38,691 nt of DNA from Acidobacteriota bacterium. Its GTDB lineage: Bacteria; Acidobacteriota; Terriglobia; Bryobacterales; Bryobacteraceae. The notes under the pieces were generated by a model. That model was not told the DNA's origin. It saw nothing but the letters and a program-made list of their open reading frames with translations, and made no database searches. The position numbers and the translations under genes were made by a program. The DNA lies in NCBI GenBank assembly GCA_016870915.1, contig VFZY01000038.1:1-38691 (forward strand), in the 5' to 3' direction. Positions 32,853 to 38,527 of this stretch are shown here, one piece after another (the first letter of the stretch is position 1; every line of letters starts with the position of its first letter).

Positions 32853-32874
32853 GGACGGACGGGAACCCTGTCAA

Positions 32875-32887
32875 CAGTTCTCAACTG
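32875..32887. promoter_or_regulatory. Small palindrome in the parA promoter
   Basis: CAGTT-CTC-AACTG (32875-32887) sits 22-34 bases before the parA ATG. The overlapping AACAGTTCT (32873-32881) is the reverse complement of AGAACTGTT, the core of the long palindrome at 34091-34115. A related AGTGTTATTAA follows at about 32894-32904. I read this as an autoregulatory operator. No Shine-Dalgarno is visible before parA. Confidence 0.5.
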
Positions 32888-32908
32888 GTGTAAAGTGTTA
32901 TTAACCTA

Positions 32909-33670
32909 ATGGGAATTCAGACCATTTCGATCGCCACCCACAAAGGCGGCACGGGCAAGACGGTCACCTCCATGGCGCTGAGCGCGGCCCTGGCCCGGCG
33001 CGGCAAGCGCGTCCTGCTGGCCGATCTCGACCCGCAAGGCCACTCGACCATCGGGCTGGGTGTGGAAGCCAACGACGGCCTGCCGACAGTCCGGGACGTC
33101 TTCACCGAACCCCCGGTCCCGGTGCACCGCATCCTCCGTCACAGCGGGGTCCCGGGCCTTGAGATTCTGCCGTCGAACATACGCCTGGAGCGGGCTGCGC
33201 AGTTCATCTACATGCGGCCGCGCCGGGAGGAACTACTGCGGCGCGCCCTGGCTCCCATCCGGCCCAACTTCGACTACATCATCATCGACTGCCCGCCTTC
33301 GCTGGGCGCCCTGACGGAAACCGGCATCGCCGCGGCGGATTTTGTCCTGGTTCCCTGCCAGATGGAGGCCCGCGCCGCCGACGGATTGGTGGATCTGCTG
33401 GAACTGGTGACCGTGCTCAAGGGCGACGGCTTCCAGGACTGGCGGATCCTGCTGACCAAGGTGGACCATCGCAAGACCATCACCAACCAGGCCGTGCAGG
33501 CCGCGTTAAGCCCCTGGGAGAGCCGCATGTTCAAAACCGCCATCCCACAGTCGGAACCCCTGAACCAGGCCCAGATCGAACGCACCGATATATTCACCTT
33601 CGACGCGAAATCCAAGGGCGCCGTGGCCTATGACGCCCTCACCGAGGAGATCCTGAGCTATGGCCGATAA
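32909..33670 (+). CDS. parA: ParA-family partition ATPase
   Basis: A 253-residue ParA/Soj-type ATPase. The deviant Walker A is ATHKGGTGKTVTS (signature Lys12, P-loop Lys17), the A'/switch region VLLADLDPQGHSTIGLG, and Walker B IIIDCPPSLGALTETG. The length and lack of an N-terminal DNA-binding domain are like type Ib plasmid or Soj-like ParAs. It overlaps the next gene by 11 bases. The partner is a small ribbon-helix-helix protein instead of a ParB, the layout of plasmid type Ib systems (ParF/ParG-like). Palindromes before and after it are possible centromere/operator sites. No replication initiator is seen, so the module is probably chromosomal or a relic of an integrated plasmid. Confidence 0.93.
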   Translation: MGIQTISIATHKGGTGKTVTSMALSAALARRGKRVLLADLDPQGHSTIGLGVEANDGLPTVRDVFTEPPVPVHRILRHSGVPGLEILPSNIRLERAAQFIYMRPRREELLRRALAPIRPNFDYIIIDCPPSLGALTETGIAAADFVLVPCQMEARAADGLVDLLELVTVLKGDGFQDWRILLTKVDHRKTITNQAVQAALSPWESRMFKTAIPQSEPLNQAQIERTDIFTFDAKSKGAVAYDALTEEILSYGR

Positions 33671-33977
33671 ACGCAGCCGCCTGGTGGCCCGGGCCCGCGA
33701 GACCGTCCGCGCCCCGCAGGCTCAAGCTCTGGCCGACGACCGCGGCGACCCCAAAGGATACCGCGTGGTGGCCGTCAGCCTCTACCTGCCCGAGGCCACC
33801 TGGATTGACCATGCCACGCGGTCGCTGCAGGTGGCTGGGAACCCCAAGGCGAACCGGTCCCTGGTCGTGCGAGAGGCGATCCTGCGGCTCCAGGAATCGC
33901 TTGAGGGGAAGTCGCCGGCTGAGATCCTGGCGGATTTCACGGCCCGCCAAGCCCGGCGCCAGCAGGGCTATTTTTGA
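33660..33977 (+). CDS. Small ribbon-helix-helix-like partner of ParA
   Basis: A 105-residue protein beginning in the parA 3' end (11-base overlap). A basic, flexible N-terminus of ~35 residues (KRSRLVARARETVRAPQAQA) precedes RVVAVSLYLPEATWIDHATRSL and KANRSLVVREAILRLQESLEG, which together read as the strand-helix-helix of the RHH (MetJ/Arc) fold. A basic tail ends in ARRQQGYF. This is the plan of ParG-type centromere-binding proteins: a flexible N-terminus that stimulates the ParA ATPase and an RHH body that binds repeated operator DNA. Assignment rests on the pattern and on the context; it may instead be a repressor of the parA operon only. Confidence 0.72.
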   Translation: MADKRSRLVARARETVRAPQAQALADDRGDPKGYRVVAVSLYLPEATWIDHATRSLQVAGNPKANRSLVVREAILRLQESLEGKSPAEILADFTARQARRQQGYF

Positions 33978-34090
33978 GGAACGCGCAAGACGGACTCGCT
34001 CCGGCTTTCTCTTCAGTCGCGTATTCCTGGAAGTTTGGGGACGCGCCGGAGCGGCCTTGCGCTTCTGGCCAGCAACTCACATTTTTCCAG

Positions 34091-34115
34091 CCGCTTAAGA
34101 ACTGTTCTTAAGCGG
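34091..34115. repeat. Perfect 25-bp palindrome, CTTAAGAAC-T-GTTCTTAAG core
   Basis: Twelve-base arms (CCGCTTAAGAAC and GTTCTTAAGCGG) around a single T. Degenerate copies follow at 34227-34247 (one mismatched pair) and 34253-34267 (half-site GGAACTGTTCTTGAG). The AGAACTGTT core also occurs inverted in the parA promoter at 32873-32881. Confidence 0.85.
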
Positions 34116-34129
34116 GTCGCGGTGCAGAC

Positions 34130-34164
34130 AGACTGAACTTCATAGCACTTATGAAGTTCAGTCT
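34130..34164. repeat. Perfect 35-bp inverted repeat with ACTTCATA core
   Basis: Fifteen-base arms, AGACTGAACTTCATA and TATGAAGTTCAGTCT, flank a GCACT spacer. The arms are too perfect for chance. A transcript could form a strong stem, but with no T-run it is not an obvious terminator. The inner 8 bases and spacer are identical to the copy at 34294-34314. Confidence 0.88.
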
Positions 34165-34226
34165 CCACGATCTCTCCCCAGCCTCACAGGCGGCGGAAGC
34201 ACAAGTGGTGTGGCGGCGGGGAAGTG

Positions 34227-34267
34227 GCTTAACAACTGTTCTTAAGCTTTTCGGAACTGTTCTTGAG
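34227..34267. repeat. Two degenerate copies of the CTTAAG-AACTGTT palindrome
   Basis: Copy one, 34227-34247, reads GCTTAACAAC-T-GTTCTTAAGC with one broken pair. Copy two, 34253-34267, keeps only AACTGTTCTTGAG on one side. The centres of the two copies are 21 bases apart (34237 and 34258), i.e. two helical turns, as expected for cooperative binding of dimers on one face. Confidence 0.75.
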
Positions 34268-34293
34268 TCCCTTGCGGAACTAAGCCCGGCGAC

Positions 34294-34314
34294 ACTTCAT
34301 AGCACTTATGAAGT
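34294..34314. repeat. Second copy of the ACTTCATA-GCACT-TATGAAGT palindrome
   Basis: Eight-base arms ACTTCATA and TATGAAGT around the same GCACT spacer as at 34130-34164. It ends 4 bases before the stop of the HTH-like gene. Confidence 0.85.
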
Positions 34315-34318
34315 CCAT

Positions 34319-34807
34319 TCAGCGCCCAGGGGACTCCACCACCTCACGAAATCGCTCGAAGTCCCTGGATACCGCCTGCGCCAGTTCGAACAACCGGGCA
34401 AGCAGTTCTTCCGCCGTGTCGAACCGGATCTCGAGCCGTCCCGGCTCAAGCACCACTCCCGGGCCCACCTTCAGCCCGGGCTGGACAGGCAGCACCACCG
34501 CCTTCGCCGCCTGCACACGATACAGCTCATCCAGGGCCTCCGCCACCCGTGCCTTCCGCCGCCGCTCCTGCCGGAACTCCTGGTCTTCCACCCGGCTGCG
34601 CAATGCGGCCAATACCTTCGATCTTTCAAGCACAAACGTCCGCCCGATCTGATATCCTCCAAACAGGCCCATCAACTGAATGGCCCGCCGCCGGCCGACA
34701 CCGAACAGGCGCTCGATGGCGGCGCGGTCGAGAACGGGGGAGGGAAGTGCCTCCAACTGCCGGAGAATCTCCGGAAGTTGCAGCAACCATTGGGCTTTGG
34801 CAGACAT
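34319..34807 (-). CDS. Putative DNA-binding protein with helix-turn-helix-like N-terminal half
   Basis: A 162-residue protein without a family name that I recognise. Residues about 27-70 (LDRAAIERLFGVGRRRAIQLMGLFGGYQIGRTFVLERSKVLAALRS) read as a winged or MerR-like helix-turn-helix: a first helix with a 'FGVGRRRAIQLM' recognition segment and a short beta turn. Residues about 80-110 are strongly charged (EFRQERRRKARVAEALDEL), possibly coiled, and the C-terminus (TAEELLARLFELAQAVSRDFERF) is amphipathic. ATG 34807 has GAGGTG about 10 bases upstream. The gene starts inside an inverted repeat (34805-34834) and converges on parA/RHH, so it may belong to the same module as regulator or partition factor. 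Confidence 0.65.
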   Translation of the reverse strand: MSAKAQWLLQLPEILRQLEALPSPVLDRAAIERLFGVGRRRAIQLMGLFGGYQIGRTFVLERSKVLAALRSRVEDQEFRQERRRKARVAEALDELYRVQAAKAVVLPVQPGLKVGPGVVLEPGRLEIRFDTAEELLARLFELAQAVSRDFERFREVVESPGR

Positions 34808-34834
34808 GGTGAGGGATCACCTCATTTCACCATG
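34805..34834. promoter_or_regulatory. Inverted repeat over the start of the HTH-like gene
   Basis: CATGGTGA (34805-34812) and TCACCATG (34827-34834) form an 8-bp dyad with a 14-base spacer that also contains a GATCACC half. It covers the start codon and ribosome site, suggesting autorepression by the encoded protein. Confidence 0.5.
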
Positions 34835-34857: not shown

Positions 34858-35480
34858 CTACCCTAGGGTGAACCGCACGGCGATCGTCGTCAACACCTCA
34901 ACCGGCTTGCCAATTCAGCAGTGTAGGCGCATACCGCCACTGCCGCACCGCCGATTCCACCAGCAGCCGCTTGCCCGCCCGGCCACCCTGCGGCGTCGAT
35001 TCGGGCGCTGAGCACCACCACGCCCTTGAACCGGACCTCACGAGCGAGAGGGGGGTGAGGAGGCCGGGGCGCGGCCATCAGTTTTGCCGCTTGAACCTCC
35101 CGCCGGCCGGACTCGGTGTTCCGAACAGAGCGGAGCCGGCCGGAACACCAGCGTCACCACCAGCCTCGGCCGGGGCAGGGAAGGGGCATTCTCGAAACCG
35201 GGTGTCACGGCCGGTATCCTCGAAGGGGCCGTGAAGGGCCGCACCATGCGAAGGAACAGCCTGGGTGTCTCCGCCGAAACCCCGTTCGCGCCGAACCCAC
35301 CACCGGCACCGCCTTCCGCACCCGGGGAGCCAGCAGCGGAGGCAGCGTCCGTGAAGGAACGGGCAGCGGCTCAACCCACAGCAGCGGCACCAGAAGAGCC
35401 GCGAACACACCTGCCCTCTGCACCACCGCCGAACACGCCACGAGACCAGCACGGCACGCACGAACAAGGCGACGGCCCGA
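34858..35480 (-). pseudogene. Energy-transducer TonB remnant, several frameshifts
   Basis: Reading leftward in three frames gives pieces of one TonB protein. A hydrophobic N-terminal stretch (VFAALLVPLLWVEPLPVPS) is in one frame. Then EVQAAKLMAAPRPPHPPLA with REVRFKGVVVLSARIDAAG, the entry of the TonB_C domain, is in a second. KRLLVESAVRQWRYAPTLLNW (the conserved AVrqWrYxPtlLNG) is in a third, and after another shift PVEVLTTIAVRFTLG ends at the TAG 34858-34860. At least two frameshifts break the C-terminal domain, and part of its middle is missing. It can make no functional transducer. Its 5' end fuses into the truncated URO-D-like gene. Confidence 0.7.
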
Positions 35481-35484
35481 ACGC

Positions 35485-36154
35485 CCAGGGCGCTTGCCTC
35501 CTTCATCGCCACCAGATCGAATGGCTTCACGTATCGCGAGAAAACCGCCGGATCGGCAAACTGCTTCGTCTCCGAACCCTGGGTCGACATGTAGAACCCG
35601 TCCACGCCCTCGCGAATACACTCCCGCACGAACAGCATCTGGCTCTCGGTGAGGATCTCAAGCCCCTTCTTCACGGCCTCGGGATTCTCCTTGAGATGCT
35701 CCCGCAACACCGGCAGCGTGGAGCAATGGCCGGCGCACATGAACGGCGAATAGAGCGTCATCAGGATCAGCGCTTCCTTCTTCGCCTGGCGCACCAGCTC
35801 CCGCACTGTCACCAGCAGCGGCTCGTAGAAGTCCAGTTTGCGCAGCTCCAGCTTCGCCCAGTCCGCCGGCTTGCGCAGAAACGTCTGCCGCTCGTAGGTC
35901 TGTTCGAACTGAATCTTCACGAAGTCCATGTCCGTGTGCCGGAAGAACTCCATGTGCTTGCGCGCCGCCGGCACGCCGTTCTTGAACTCGGGAGAAAAAT
36001 GCAGGAAGAATGCCGCCGGGGTGTACCCCGCCTCCGGCTTTCCGGAAAGCCAGGCCAGCATCCGTTCCCGCTTGCCAGGCCCCGTGGCCGCACGCACCGC
36101 GGAGAATGGCCCCGCCGCCAGCAGTCCTGTAAATCCACGCCTTGTCAAATGCAC
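35485..36154 (-). pseudogene. Uroporphyrinogen-decarboxylase-like protein, 3' truncated
   Basis: Residues 1-220 read as an intact N-terminal two-thirds of a URO-D-superfamily protein with an export signal: a Tat-like HLTRRGFTGLLAAGPFSAVRA, then FFLHFSPEFKNGVPAARKHMEFFRHTDMDFVKIQFEQ and EGVDGFYMSTQGSETKQF, with VKPFDLVAMKEA last. The normal C-terminal part (~120 residues with the ICDY and barrel-closing strands) is absent. After about 35490 the frame runs on through unrelated out-of-frame tonB DNA to 35078. A deletion has joined the two genes. The GTG start at 36154 looks natural. Enzymes of this exported group have no settled function. Confidence 0.65.
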
Positions 36155-36651: not shown

Positions 36652-37848
36652 TCATCCTAACACGCGTTCCCACCCCCGGCCTTTTCCAGCCCGGTTTTTT
36701 CCATTTTGTTCGTGGGCTGCCACAGGCTGGTGGCCGGCCGCACAAAGATCACCGTCGCGCAGGCTGCCGCCGCCAGCATCACTACAAAGGACCGCACCGG
36801 CGCGGTCAGCCGCTTGAGCGGGCTCGCCTTGGGCAGCCACACATCGAGCATCGCCGCGCCATAAAACGCCGCCTGCCCCCACAAAAACACCGCACCCAGC
36901 CACCCCCCCCGCACCCAGACTCCCGGCCAGCACACCGAGCATCCCCAGCGGCATCATCAGCCGGCCCACCTTCTGCGACAGGAAATGGATCCACATCCGG
37001 TTCCGCCAAGTCAGCAGCTCCGGCATCAGGCCCATCAACTGGTAGACGCCGGCCTGCGTCCGCACCTTGCGCCGGAACTCGGTGTCGAGCGCAGTGGGCA
37101 GATCGTACGCCCGCGCCTCCCGGTCCAGGATCACCCGTTTGCCGGCAAAGAACGCCTTGAGCGGCAGATACATGTCGTCGACCAGCGTTCCGTCCGGCAA
37201 CGGGGCGGTTAAAGCCCGCCGGATCATGTAGATGGCCCCGGTGGCCCCCATCACGGAGTCGATCGCGCTCAGCCGCTCCCGCATCCACTTCTCATACCGC
37301 CAGTAGAGGCCGATCGACGCCTCTTCCCGCGTCACCCCGTCGAGAATGATCAGTTCTCCGCTCGCCGCACCCACCGACGGATCCCCCAGACAGGCCGCCA
37401 GGCTCGACAGCGCATTCGCCGACAGATCCTGCCGAACATCGGTCATGAACAGAAGCTCCCCGGTGGCCTCCCGCAGCCCCAGATTGAGTGCCGCCGCCTT
37501 GCCCGCCGGGGCCTGCCGCAGCAGCCGTAGCCGGGGCGCTTCGCCCCGCCCTGCCCAAGCTTCCACCAGGGCTTCCGTAGTGTCGGTACTGCCATCGGAA
37601 ATGACAAGAATATCAATGAGATGCAGCGGGTAGTCCTGCTCCGCCAGCGTGCGGAGCTTGCCCTCGATCCAGCGCTCCCCGTTACGCACCGGAAGCAGGA
37701 CCGTCACCGTGGGCTGGTAGGAGGCATCCTTCACCACCGGCCGCCGCTTCCGGCCGGCCATCCACCCCAGCAGCAGCGGATACCCCGCCAACACGTACAC
37801 CAGAAAACCCGTGGAGAGCAGCAGAATGGCCGTCCACATGGTCAACAT
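36652..37848 (-). CDS. Glycosyltransferase family 2, membrane-bound, frameshifted near its C-terminus
   Basis: A GT2 enzyme read as 398 residues. It has an N-terminal membrane helix (AILLLSTGFLVYVLAGYPLLLG), then the GT-A domain: TVTVLLPVRNGERWIEGKL, LVISDGSTDTTEALV (DG.S.D), ELLFMTDVRQDLSANAL (D-x-D-like) and TLVDDMYLPLKAFFAGKRV (ED-like DD), and a Q..R.. region RRKVRTQAGVYQL. At residue ~315 a run of eight G (C at 36903-36910) shifts the frame. Removing one G restores a tail with GWLGAVFLWGQAAFYGAAML and FVVMLAAAACATVIFVRP, two natural membrane helices, ending at 36657 for 396 residues. As sequenced, the C-terminus is Gly/Ala/Arg-rich nonsense. GAGAGG precedes ATG 37848 by 5 bases. Confidence 0.85.
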   Translation of the reverse strand: MLTMWTAILLLSTGFLVYVLAGYPLLLGWMAGRKRRPVVKDASYQPTVTVLLPVRNGERWIEGKLRTLAEQDYPLHLIDILVISDGSTDTTEALVEAWAGRGEAPRLRLLRQAPAGKAAALNLGLREATGELLFMTDVRQDLSANALSSLAACLGDPSVGAASGELIILDGVTREEASIGLYWRYEKWMRERLSAIDSVMGATGAIYMIRRALTAPLPDGTLVDDMYLPLKAFFAGKRVILDREARAYDLPTALDTEFRRKVRTQAGVYQLMGLMPELLTWRNRMWIHFLSQKVGRLMMPLGMLGVLAGSLGAGGVAGCGVFVGAGGVLWRGDARCVAAQGEPAQAADRAGAVLCSDAGGGSLRDGDLCAAGHQPVAAHEQNGKNRAGKGRGWERVLG

Positions 37849-38005
37849 ATCGCCTCTCGAAACACTCCCGAAGAGCCGGGATTCAGCCGATTAATAGATA
37901 CACCTCCGCCTTTTGAAAACCGGCGTCGGACAATGCGGTCATGGTATGCTGAGATTCCTTCGGAAGGACACCTTCCAGACTCCTTGCCCCGGCTCTAACT
38001 GATTC

Positions 38006-38527
38006 ATGATTCGGCTCTTCCAGATATTGATCCCGGTAGCTCACCTGGTTCTCATCTTTCTGGATTTCATCATTCTGGGCGGGCTTTTCGTTCTCGCCAG
38101 CATTCTCACCATGGATGTTCCCGATCTGGGAATATACCTTTTCTATGAAAATGGCCTCACTCGGATCGCGCCCGTCCTCATCATCATGATGTTTGGCTGG
38201 TATTTCGAGGACCTTTACAGCCGCATCTACATCTATTCTCGCATCTACCTCGCCCAGCAGGTCCTGGTGGTTGTAGGAGCTACACTCCTCGCCCAGTCGC
38301 TCATCTACTACGTCGCCCCGGCCAGTGCTCTGGAGCCCTCAACCGCTTTCCTTGCCATGGGAATGATCGTTGTGGTCTTCCCGCTCTGGCGTCTCTTCTA
38401 CAGCTCCTTTCTGCTGGAACGCACCGCCGAATCGATCCTTGTGGTCGGCCACAGCCCGGTTGTCCATGAGATGGTTGAGCACCTGCAGAAGCAGCCCGAA
38501 CTGAATCTTCGCATCTTGGGTTATTAA
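38006..38527 (+). pseudogene. Polyprenyl glycosylphosphotransferase N-terminal part, cut by an insertion sequence
   Basis: The 173 residues show four membrane helices (LFQILIPVAHLVLIFLDFII, then IAPVLIIMMFGWYF, VLVVVGATLLAQSLIYYV and FLAMGMIVVVFPLWRLFY) and the beginning of the CoA-binding-like domain: ILVVGHSPVVHEMVEHLQKQ with ELNLRILGY. In this family the chain continues 'GfvDD' and ends with a bacterial sugar transferase domain, about 460 residues in all. Here TAA follows at once, and the DNA beyond belongs to a transposase on the other strand. The enzyme that loads the first sugar on undecaprenyl phosphate for an exopolysaccharide is thus probably inactive. Confidence 0.75.

Follow-up and report, generated by a model that had tools for sequence, protein, structure and literature searches.

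Contig VFZY01000038.1 of the Bryobacteraceae assembly GCA_016870915.1 (Acidobacteriota), from a host that we take to be a soil bacterium, is 38,691 nucleotides long and was analysed over its whole length, which we call the window. Near one end lies a module of three small genes and several clustered mirror-image sites, on a contig that otherwise carries ordinary cellular genes. A parA gene leads into an overlapping ribbon-helix-helix (RHH)-like gene, which is followed by a gap of 341 bp and then by a convergent helix-turn-helix (HTH) gene (Table 1). A preliminary description, made from the sequence without database searches, had reported this layout, including an 11-base overlap between the ParA and RHH-like genes (33660-33670) and the long palindromes in the gap; the open reading frames (ORFs), their frames, and palindromes A and B were all confirmed when we went over the locus again.

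Palindromes A and B are perfect, as first described, and we found three copies that had not been listed, A', A'' and B'. The distance from A to A'' is 155 bp and that from B to B' is 157 bp, so that the A-B pair is present twice. Counting palindromes with perfect arms of at least 8 bp and a spacer of at most 6 bp, we found three in the gap plus 12 bp, where 500 dinucleotide shuffles gave a mean of 0.048 and a maximum of 1. The whole window holds 11 palindromes of this kind, and arms of at least 10 bp occur in only two of them, both in the gap. Allowing up to two mismatches, the B core is found in its own genome at this locus only, and the A core has one further copy, on contig C95 with two mismatches (C-numbers denote contigs, and L-numbers denote loci of relatives, except L225 and L033, which are from the same genome as the window). 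The half-site pattern AACWGTTCTYRA has five matches in the window, all inside the module, where 0.01 would be expected; in the 6.6-Mb genome it has nine matches, five of them in the module, and the reversed-pattern control has two. A site common to the par promoter and a nearby array would be expected of an autoregulated partition complex. A promoter and terminator scan of the locus found neither, and the palindromes therefore do not look like terminators; no Rfam match was found. The claim that the HTH gene starts within an inverted repeat holds in that the repeat is real (CATGGTGA at 34805-34812 and TCACCATG at 34827-34834), and the repeat is weak.

Table 1. Genes and sites of the module (positions in the window)
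Feature	Coordinates	Strand	Description
A-type half-site AACAGTTCTCAA	32873..32884	+	probable operator, 24 bp ahead of the parA start codon
parA	32909..33670	+	ParA-type Walker ATPase, 253 aa; Pfam AAA_31 2.1e-45
RHH-like gene	33660..33977	+	candidate centromere-binding protein of 105 aa with a basic N-terminal tail
Palindrome A, CCGCTTAAGAAC-T-GTTCTTAAGCGG	34091..34115		perfect 12-bp arms, 1-bp centre
Palindrome B	34130..34164		perfect 15-bp arms, 5-bp spacer
Palindrome A'	34227..34247		95% of A
A'' (degenerate)	34248..34268		71% of A; abuts A' directly; half-site pattern match
Palindrome B'	34294..34314		21-bp core of B; ends 4 bp from the HTH stop codon
HTH gene	34319..34807	-	winged-HTH protein, 162 aa; unnamed Terriglobia plasmid-associated family
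Weak inverted repeat	34805..34834		spans the HTH start codon; arms of 8 bp, spacer of 14 bp; read directly

With genes for FliW, flagellin, a flavin mononucleotide-dependent dehydrogenase and glycosyltransferases, the contig looks chromosome-like by gene content, although a draft contig cannot prove chromosomal location. GC content at third codon positions is 0.76-0.85 in the module genes and 0.77-0.81 in five genes compared, and this similarity offers no hint that they were acquired recently; the gap has a GC content of 0.55 versus 0.64 for the whole window. The same genome carries a separate gidA-parA-parB locus on contig C48 (gidA assigned by eye), which holds the only ParB match in the genome, and the window has no ParB gene beside its parA. 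The window ParA is therefore not the housekeeping copy. The earlier suggestion that the module might serve the chromosome is accordingly disfavoured, both by that separate locus and by the local distribution of the palindromes. No replication gene had been seen at the locus, and none was found: searches at the protein and profile levels recovered no remnant of a replication initiator (Rep), an Xer-like recombinase (Xer) or ScpA near the module. No dif-like site was found upstream of the window HTH gene. Beside the module, a URO-D-like ORF (35078-36154) covers part of its family and looks truncated or frameshifted.

The HTH gene proved to be real: homologues occur throughout the class, and its product is predicted to begin with a winged helix. 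The protein has no Pfam hit over cut-off. In a model built from six sequences (mean predicted local distance difference test score, pLDDT, 72.9) the predicted N-terminal winged helix is closest to Rex repressors (Z 7.5, root-mean-square deviation 2.8, 71 residues), with no sequence match; as modelled, the likeness to Rex is one of fold only, and of the N-terminus only. A Foldseek search with the model gave no match at E <=0.001. KITE and ScpB folds were not among the 50 matches listed in the structural comparison that pointed to Rex, which excludes nothing; coverage of the C-terminus was slight. The family is patchily spread: its profile matched 58 of the 257 genomes from the order and 33 of 399 genomes drawn from the class, and it found no relative in IMG/VR. 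A third component with HTH character had been called unusual; within Terriglobia it is recurrent.

To describe the surroundings of this family, we used three sets of loci. The order set comprises 56 of the 75 profile matches outside the window, 19 weaker or fragmentary ones having been left out; the class set comprises 20 stretches, which cover all the places outside the order; and the named set comprises two Acidisarcina plasmids and the jumbo phage Tunturi_5. Because only the order and named loci contributed to the neighbour profiles, the class loci form an independent set. Controls were 37 arbitrary contig regions of the same order genomes, 460 kb in total versus 775 kb for the loci. The HTH gene has a ParA no more than 6 kb away in 38/56 order, 17/20 class and 2/3 named loci; a divergent Xer-like recombinase lies within 400 bp in 29/56, 9/20 and 2/3; and a replication initiator lies within 7 kb in 22/56, 15/20 and 1/3. 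The control regions gave no HTH, ParA or Rep match (0/37 for each) and a single Xer match (1/37). Where 6 kb was available on both sides, ParA was near in 21 of 27 order loci and 14 of 15 class loci. By Pfam, with one or two members scanned from each neighbour family, the recombinase is Phage_integrase, one initiator type is RPA and a kleisin-like gene is SMC_ScpA; the other initiator type lacks a Pfam match and is annotated as RepA on plasmid pACIX905 and as a replication helicase in Tunturi_5.

The same loci carry a recurrent site. The palindrome ATAA-N5-8-TTAT, which resembles dif/lox sites, lies upstream of 26 of 63 HTH genes at a distance of at most 260 bp (in 60 loci, the window included, related loci not being independent of one another), where shuffles give 0.43; it occurs once downstream and once inside. 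Where a divergent recombinase is present, the site lies near the HTH/recombinase junction. Loci with the site upstream of HTH include L023, L087, L091, L099, L102 and L106, and in most cases it faces a Xer-like recombinase. Because relatives keep such a palindrome near a recombinase gene, and because B has a similar inverted-arm form, one might suppose that the B palindromes are sites of a lost Xer-like recombinase and that the duplicated A-B unit is an integration scar. We regard this as highly improbable: B does not fit the consensus, having a 5-bp spacer and TTAT in one half only, and it lies at the 3' end of the HTH gene, with nothing dif-like upstream. The designation of B as a loxP- or dif-like site was not adopted.

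On conservation with parA in relatives, by which the preliminary description proposed to be judged, the outcome is split. The HTH gene is conserved with parA; neither palindrome A nor palindrome B was observed in relatives, a number of which have other repeats. Upstream of ParA, repeated 7-mers exceed simple shuffles (p <=0.01) at 19 of 58 ParA genes, and in the window the same test gives p 0.02, with a 7-mer that lies outside A and B.

On two closed plasmids of Granulicella tundricola the family stands in a maintenance region: pACIX901 reads HTH>ParA>126 aa>replication initiator A, and pACIX905 reads recombinase<>HTH>ParA>103 aa>RepA, with the HTH gene split over two frames. The genome report gives this species one chromosome and five plasmids (PMC4148992). 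A family member is also carried by the closed Acidisarcina plasmid pACPOL4, and in phage Tunturi_5 (309 kb) the HTH gene, ParA and a small protein follow one another (L036 8001-9749). In three class genomes of 2 to 4 contigs the family lies on contigs of 115, 129 and 137 kb, and in one 2-contig genome of the order it lies on a 55-kb contig, G212:C2. A check for circularity found no terminal overlap in this 55-kb contig, which is thus at most a putative plasmid, and over 40 kb of the remainder no module gene matched (E 1e-6). Three further relatives, L202, L203 and L215, have the order Rep>ParA>(10-bp overlap)small RHH-like><HTH, then Xer, which is the window order plus Rep and Xer. In L023 the arrangement is Xer<>HTH><small<ParA, and the ParA of that locus is, among module ParAs, the closest to that of the window (39%).

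Taken together, we consider it probable that the locus is a plasmid-type ParA/RHH partition module, working like type Ib systems, with an HTH companion typical of Terriglobia plasmids, now on a chromosome-like contig and without Rep, Xer or a dif-like site, its genes being intact and a local centromere-like array retained. The preliminary description had proposed a partition-type module with two DNA-binding proteins, perhaps of a relic plasmid, and this is the best-supported reading: linkage of the HTH family to ParA extends over the class, and the family stands with ParA, a small protein and Rep on closed Granulicella plasmids, while DNA binding by the two proteins would be expected from their predicted character. 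Among the features of the HTH plasmid backbone of Terriglobia, the window has an HTH gene with ParA within 6 kb, and lacks a nearby Rep and a divergent Xer with a dif-like site. The window copy is probably of plasmid ancestry, and the module may still be acting.

The absence of Rep, Xer and the dif-like site also suits a sub-case of that ancestry, in which the locus is a functionless, decaying relic of an integrated plasmid, under no selection. The neighbouring URO-D gene, which matches its family in part and looks broken, is in keeping with decay, as is the occurrence of HTH genes without ParA, Xer or Rep nearby in 4 of 42 loci with full flanks. Against this stand the three intact frames, the perfect 12- and 15-bp palindrome arms and the preserved copies; intact frames and perfect arms argue against free decay and are no proof of function. 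On balance we think a decaying relic rather unlikely.

The RHH identity of the second protein is that of a candidate, resting on its sequence as judged by eye and on RHH/ParG proteins at the same position in three relatives; its size and its place just downstream of parA suit a centromere-binding protein of type Ib. It has no Pfam, NCBIfam or credible PDB match, a profile search against the PDB gave weak unrelated matches, and a single-sequence model was poor (pLDDT 45) and unusable. Searches with it against plasmids and phages found no relative; a single IMG/VR match lay inside an unrelated 729-aa ORF and was dropped. Among the small proteins of relatives, ten were scanned, including a relative from the ParA-less locus L115: three exceed the cut-off, as ParG PF09274 (L104), RHH_1 (L211) and Antitox_RHH (L216), and seven match nothing over it. 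Of 57 ParA genes, 32 are followed by a small gene (70-180 aa), although some of these are probably spurious ORFs; the following gene is larger for 20/57, with HTH_36 in the one member scanned against Pfam, and absent for 5/57.

The window ParA is a ParA-type ATPase, AAA_31 spanning residues 4-171, and lacks an N-terminal HTH extension or DNA-binding domain. Against the PDB it matches the ParA family structure 8ray at 3.2e-40 and Soj (1wcv) at 1e-29, and, more distantly, ParF (4dzz) at 1.1e-9 and delta' (2oze) at 1.2e-7. Module ParAs are diverse, and by both sequence and tree position the window ParA is of Soj type; its link to the plasmid backbone consequently rests on the HTH family and on the layout (L023).

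Several observations weigh against the proposed plasmid-type module. The window ParA is 37-41% identical (151-167 bits) to 19 of the best ParA hits of the order, which have a ParB match in 18/19 loci and gidA in 15/19 and so are mostly chromosomal Soj; the best module ParAs score lower (L023 39%, 135 bits; L219 31%, 120 bits), and those of the L202 type match at just 29 bits. A FastTree tree of 79 ParAs places the window ParA as sister to the ParA of L121 with a support of 0.95. The window ParA may thus be of Soj descent and the module a mosaic, as far as sequence comparison can indicate. The RHH-like protein matches no family, and the 256 other genomes of the order yielded a single weak relative, in whose 3.2-kb locus no ParA ORF was seen. 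In 18 of the 56 order loci ParA is missing from the 6 kb around the HTH gene, some loci being cut by contig ends, and a 4-contig genome of the order has its HTH gene on a 6.18-Mb contig with no module genes nearby. The repeats of relatives lie mostly upstream of parA, whereas the main array of the window lies downstream, and the convergent genes of the L202-type loci have no gap between them. Neither an integration scar nor an empty site was found for the window, and a 38.7-kb draft contig may also be compatible with a large secondary replicon.

Some of these points would also fit a Soj-type ParA that was duplicated from, or is common with, chromosomal ParAB and was re-paired with an RHH protein beside an unrelated stray HTH gene, never having been part of a plasmid backbone. 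The similarities and tree position of the window ParA speak for it, as does its sister in L121 (620-2403), a 3.7-kb locus with a ParB-like neighbour and without an HTH-family gene. The linkage of HTH to ParA across the class speaks against it; L023 moreover joins a fairly similar ParA to a small protein, HTH and Xer, and with module ParAs as diverse as they are, exchange of ParA within modules is to be expected. We find this origin quite unlikely. As for L121 itself, where no match to gidA was seen, the pair is perhaps an accessory Soj/Spo0J pair.

ParA-like ATPases also position proteins, and a McdA-like ParA that places cargo such as flagellar or exopolysaccharide machinery could be envisaged here. 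McdA structures are among the ParA matches, and glycosyltransferase genes adjoin the module; the McdA match (8e-19) is, however, weaker than that to partition ParA (3.2e-40), the relatives carry Rep and Xer, and the curated BcsQ model gives 60.6 bits, far under its cut-off of 157.85. Near HTH loci, glycosyltransferase or exopolysaccharide-type genes were seen in the window (36652-38527) and in L026, L031, L032, L076 and L077. Probes for such genes, which were drawn from the test loci and some of which match the same gene, gave raw counts of 19/56 versus 5/37 controls for any probe and 15/56 versus 1/37 for two or more; with the seven donor loci removed, the counts are 12/49 versus 5/37 (Fisher 0.28) and 9/49 versus 1/37 (Fisher 0.038). 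The enrichment is thus slight and uncertain, and a protein-positioning role strikes us as most unlikely.

Three further observations concern the HTH family and the host genome. At 15 of the 56 order loci the HTH gene is overlapped at its end by a ScpA-like kleisin gene, taken as the longest ORF (for example L021 9833-10567 and L030 7471-8175). On contig C10 of the host genome an unlinked replication-initiator-like gene (L225 9016-10635; RPA, 26.2 bits versus a cut-off of 27) lies 7 kb from a RecA-like gene and adjoins a glycosyltransferase-like ORF, both assigned by eye. On contig C330 there is a second HTH copy (L033 135-791), 30% identical, adjoining a 982-aa ORF that by eye resembles a Tn3-type transposase.

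If the plasmid-type module is indeed a partition device, a dimer of the RHH-like protein would bind both the A half-site that precedes parA and the A sites of the gap, and would thereby form a partition complex and repress parA. Its basic tail would stimulate the ATPase of ParA, as in ParF/ParG. A winged-HTH dimer would bind the B sites, its own promoter or both, and would regulate or co-organise the complex; the HTH protein may regulate the module, bind the B sites, or recruit condensin where ScpA follows. A bolder version, which we offer as speculation and consider very unlikely, makes the HTH protein a dedicated third partition component of Terriglobia plasmids, which, where its gene overlaps that of a ScpA-like kleisin, would together with the kleisin load the host SMC condensin on the centromere of the element and so couple ParA to condensin; the window copy, with its Soj-type ParA, RHH partner and two families of palindromes, would then be a reduced and domesticated form with the task of organising a region of the chromosome locally.

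These comparisons give the HTH family a setting, in the maintenance region of Acidobacteriota plasmids and in likely chromosomal derivatives. They also provide a three-gene module that can be tested and has defined sites, a pair of Xer and dif-like site that recurs, and a possible plasmid-borne kleisin. Should the window copy be active, it would be a plasmid segregation device retained without its plasmid. In the open-access literature, considered mostly at the level of the titles listed together with passages of PMC5016525, PMC11924767 and PMC4148992, we found no description of the HTH family or of the module.

Among known systems, the backbones of pACIX901 and pACIX905 share with the window an HTH family member beside ParA and a small downstream protein; they differ in adding a replication initiator (and, in pACIX905, Xer), in orientation and, for pACIX905, in the split HTH gene. 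Chromosomal ParABS (gidA-parA-parB) shares the Soj-type ParA, whereas the window has no ParB and local sites, and its own genome has ParABS on C48. Type Ib systems, such as ParF/ParG of TP228 and delta/omega of pSM19035, have in common with it a ParA without an N-terminal HTH, a small RHH-like partner with a basic tail, and repeated sites near the genes with a common site at the par promoter. A direct- or inverted-repeat centromere upstream of the operon is given as a feature of type Ib partition (PMC5016525); in the window, by contrast, the main array lies downstream between convergent genes and only a half-site lies upstream. The window also adds a winged-HTH gene, lies on a chromosome-like contig, and has a Soj-like rather than ParF-like ParA, so that the comparison with ParF/ParG drawn in the preliminary description is weaker in sequence than it looks. 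Because its ParA stands outside the ParF/delta lineage, we describe the module as working like type Ib and do not file it as a member.

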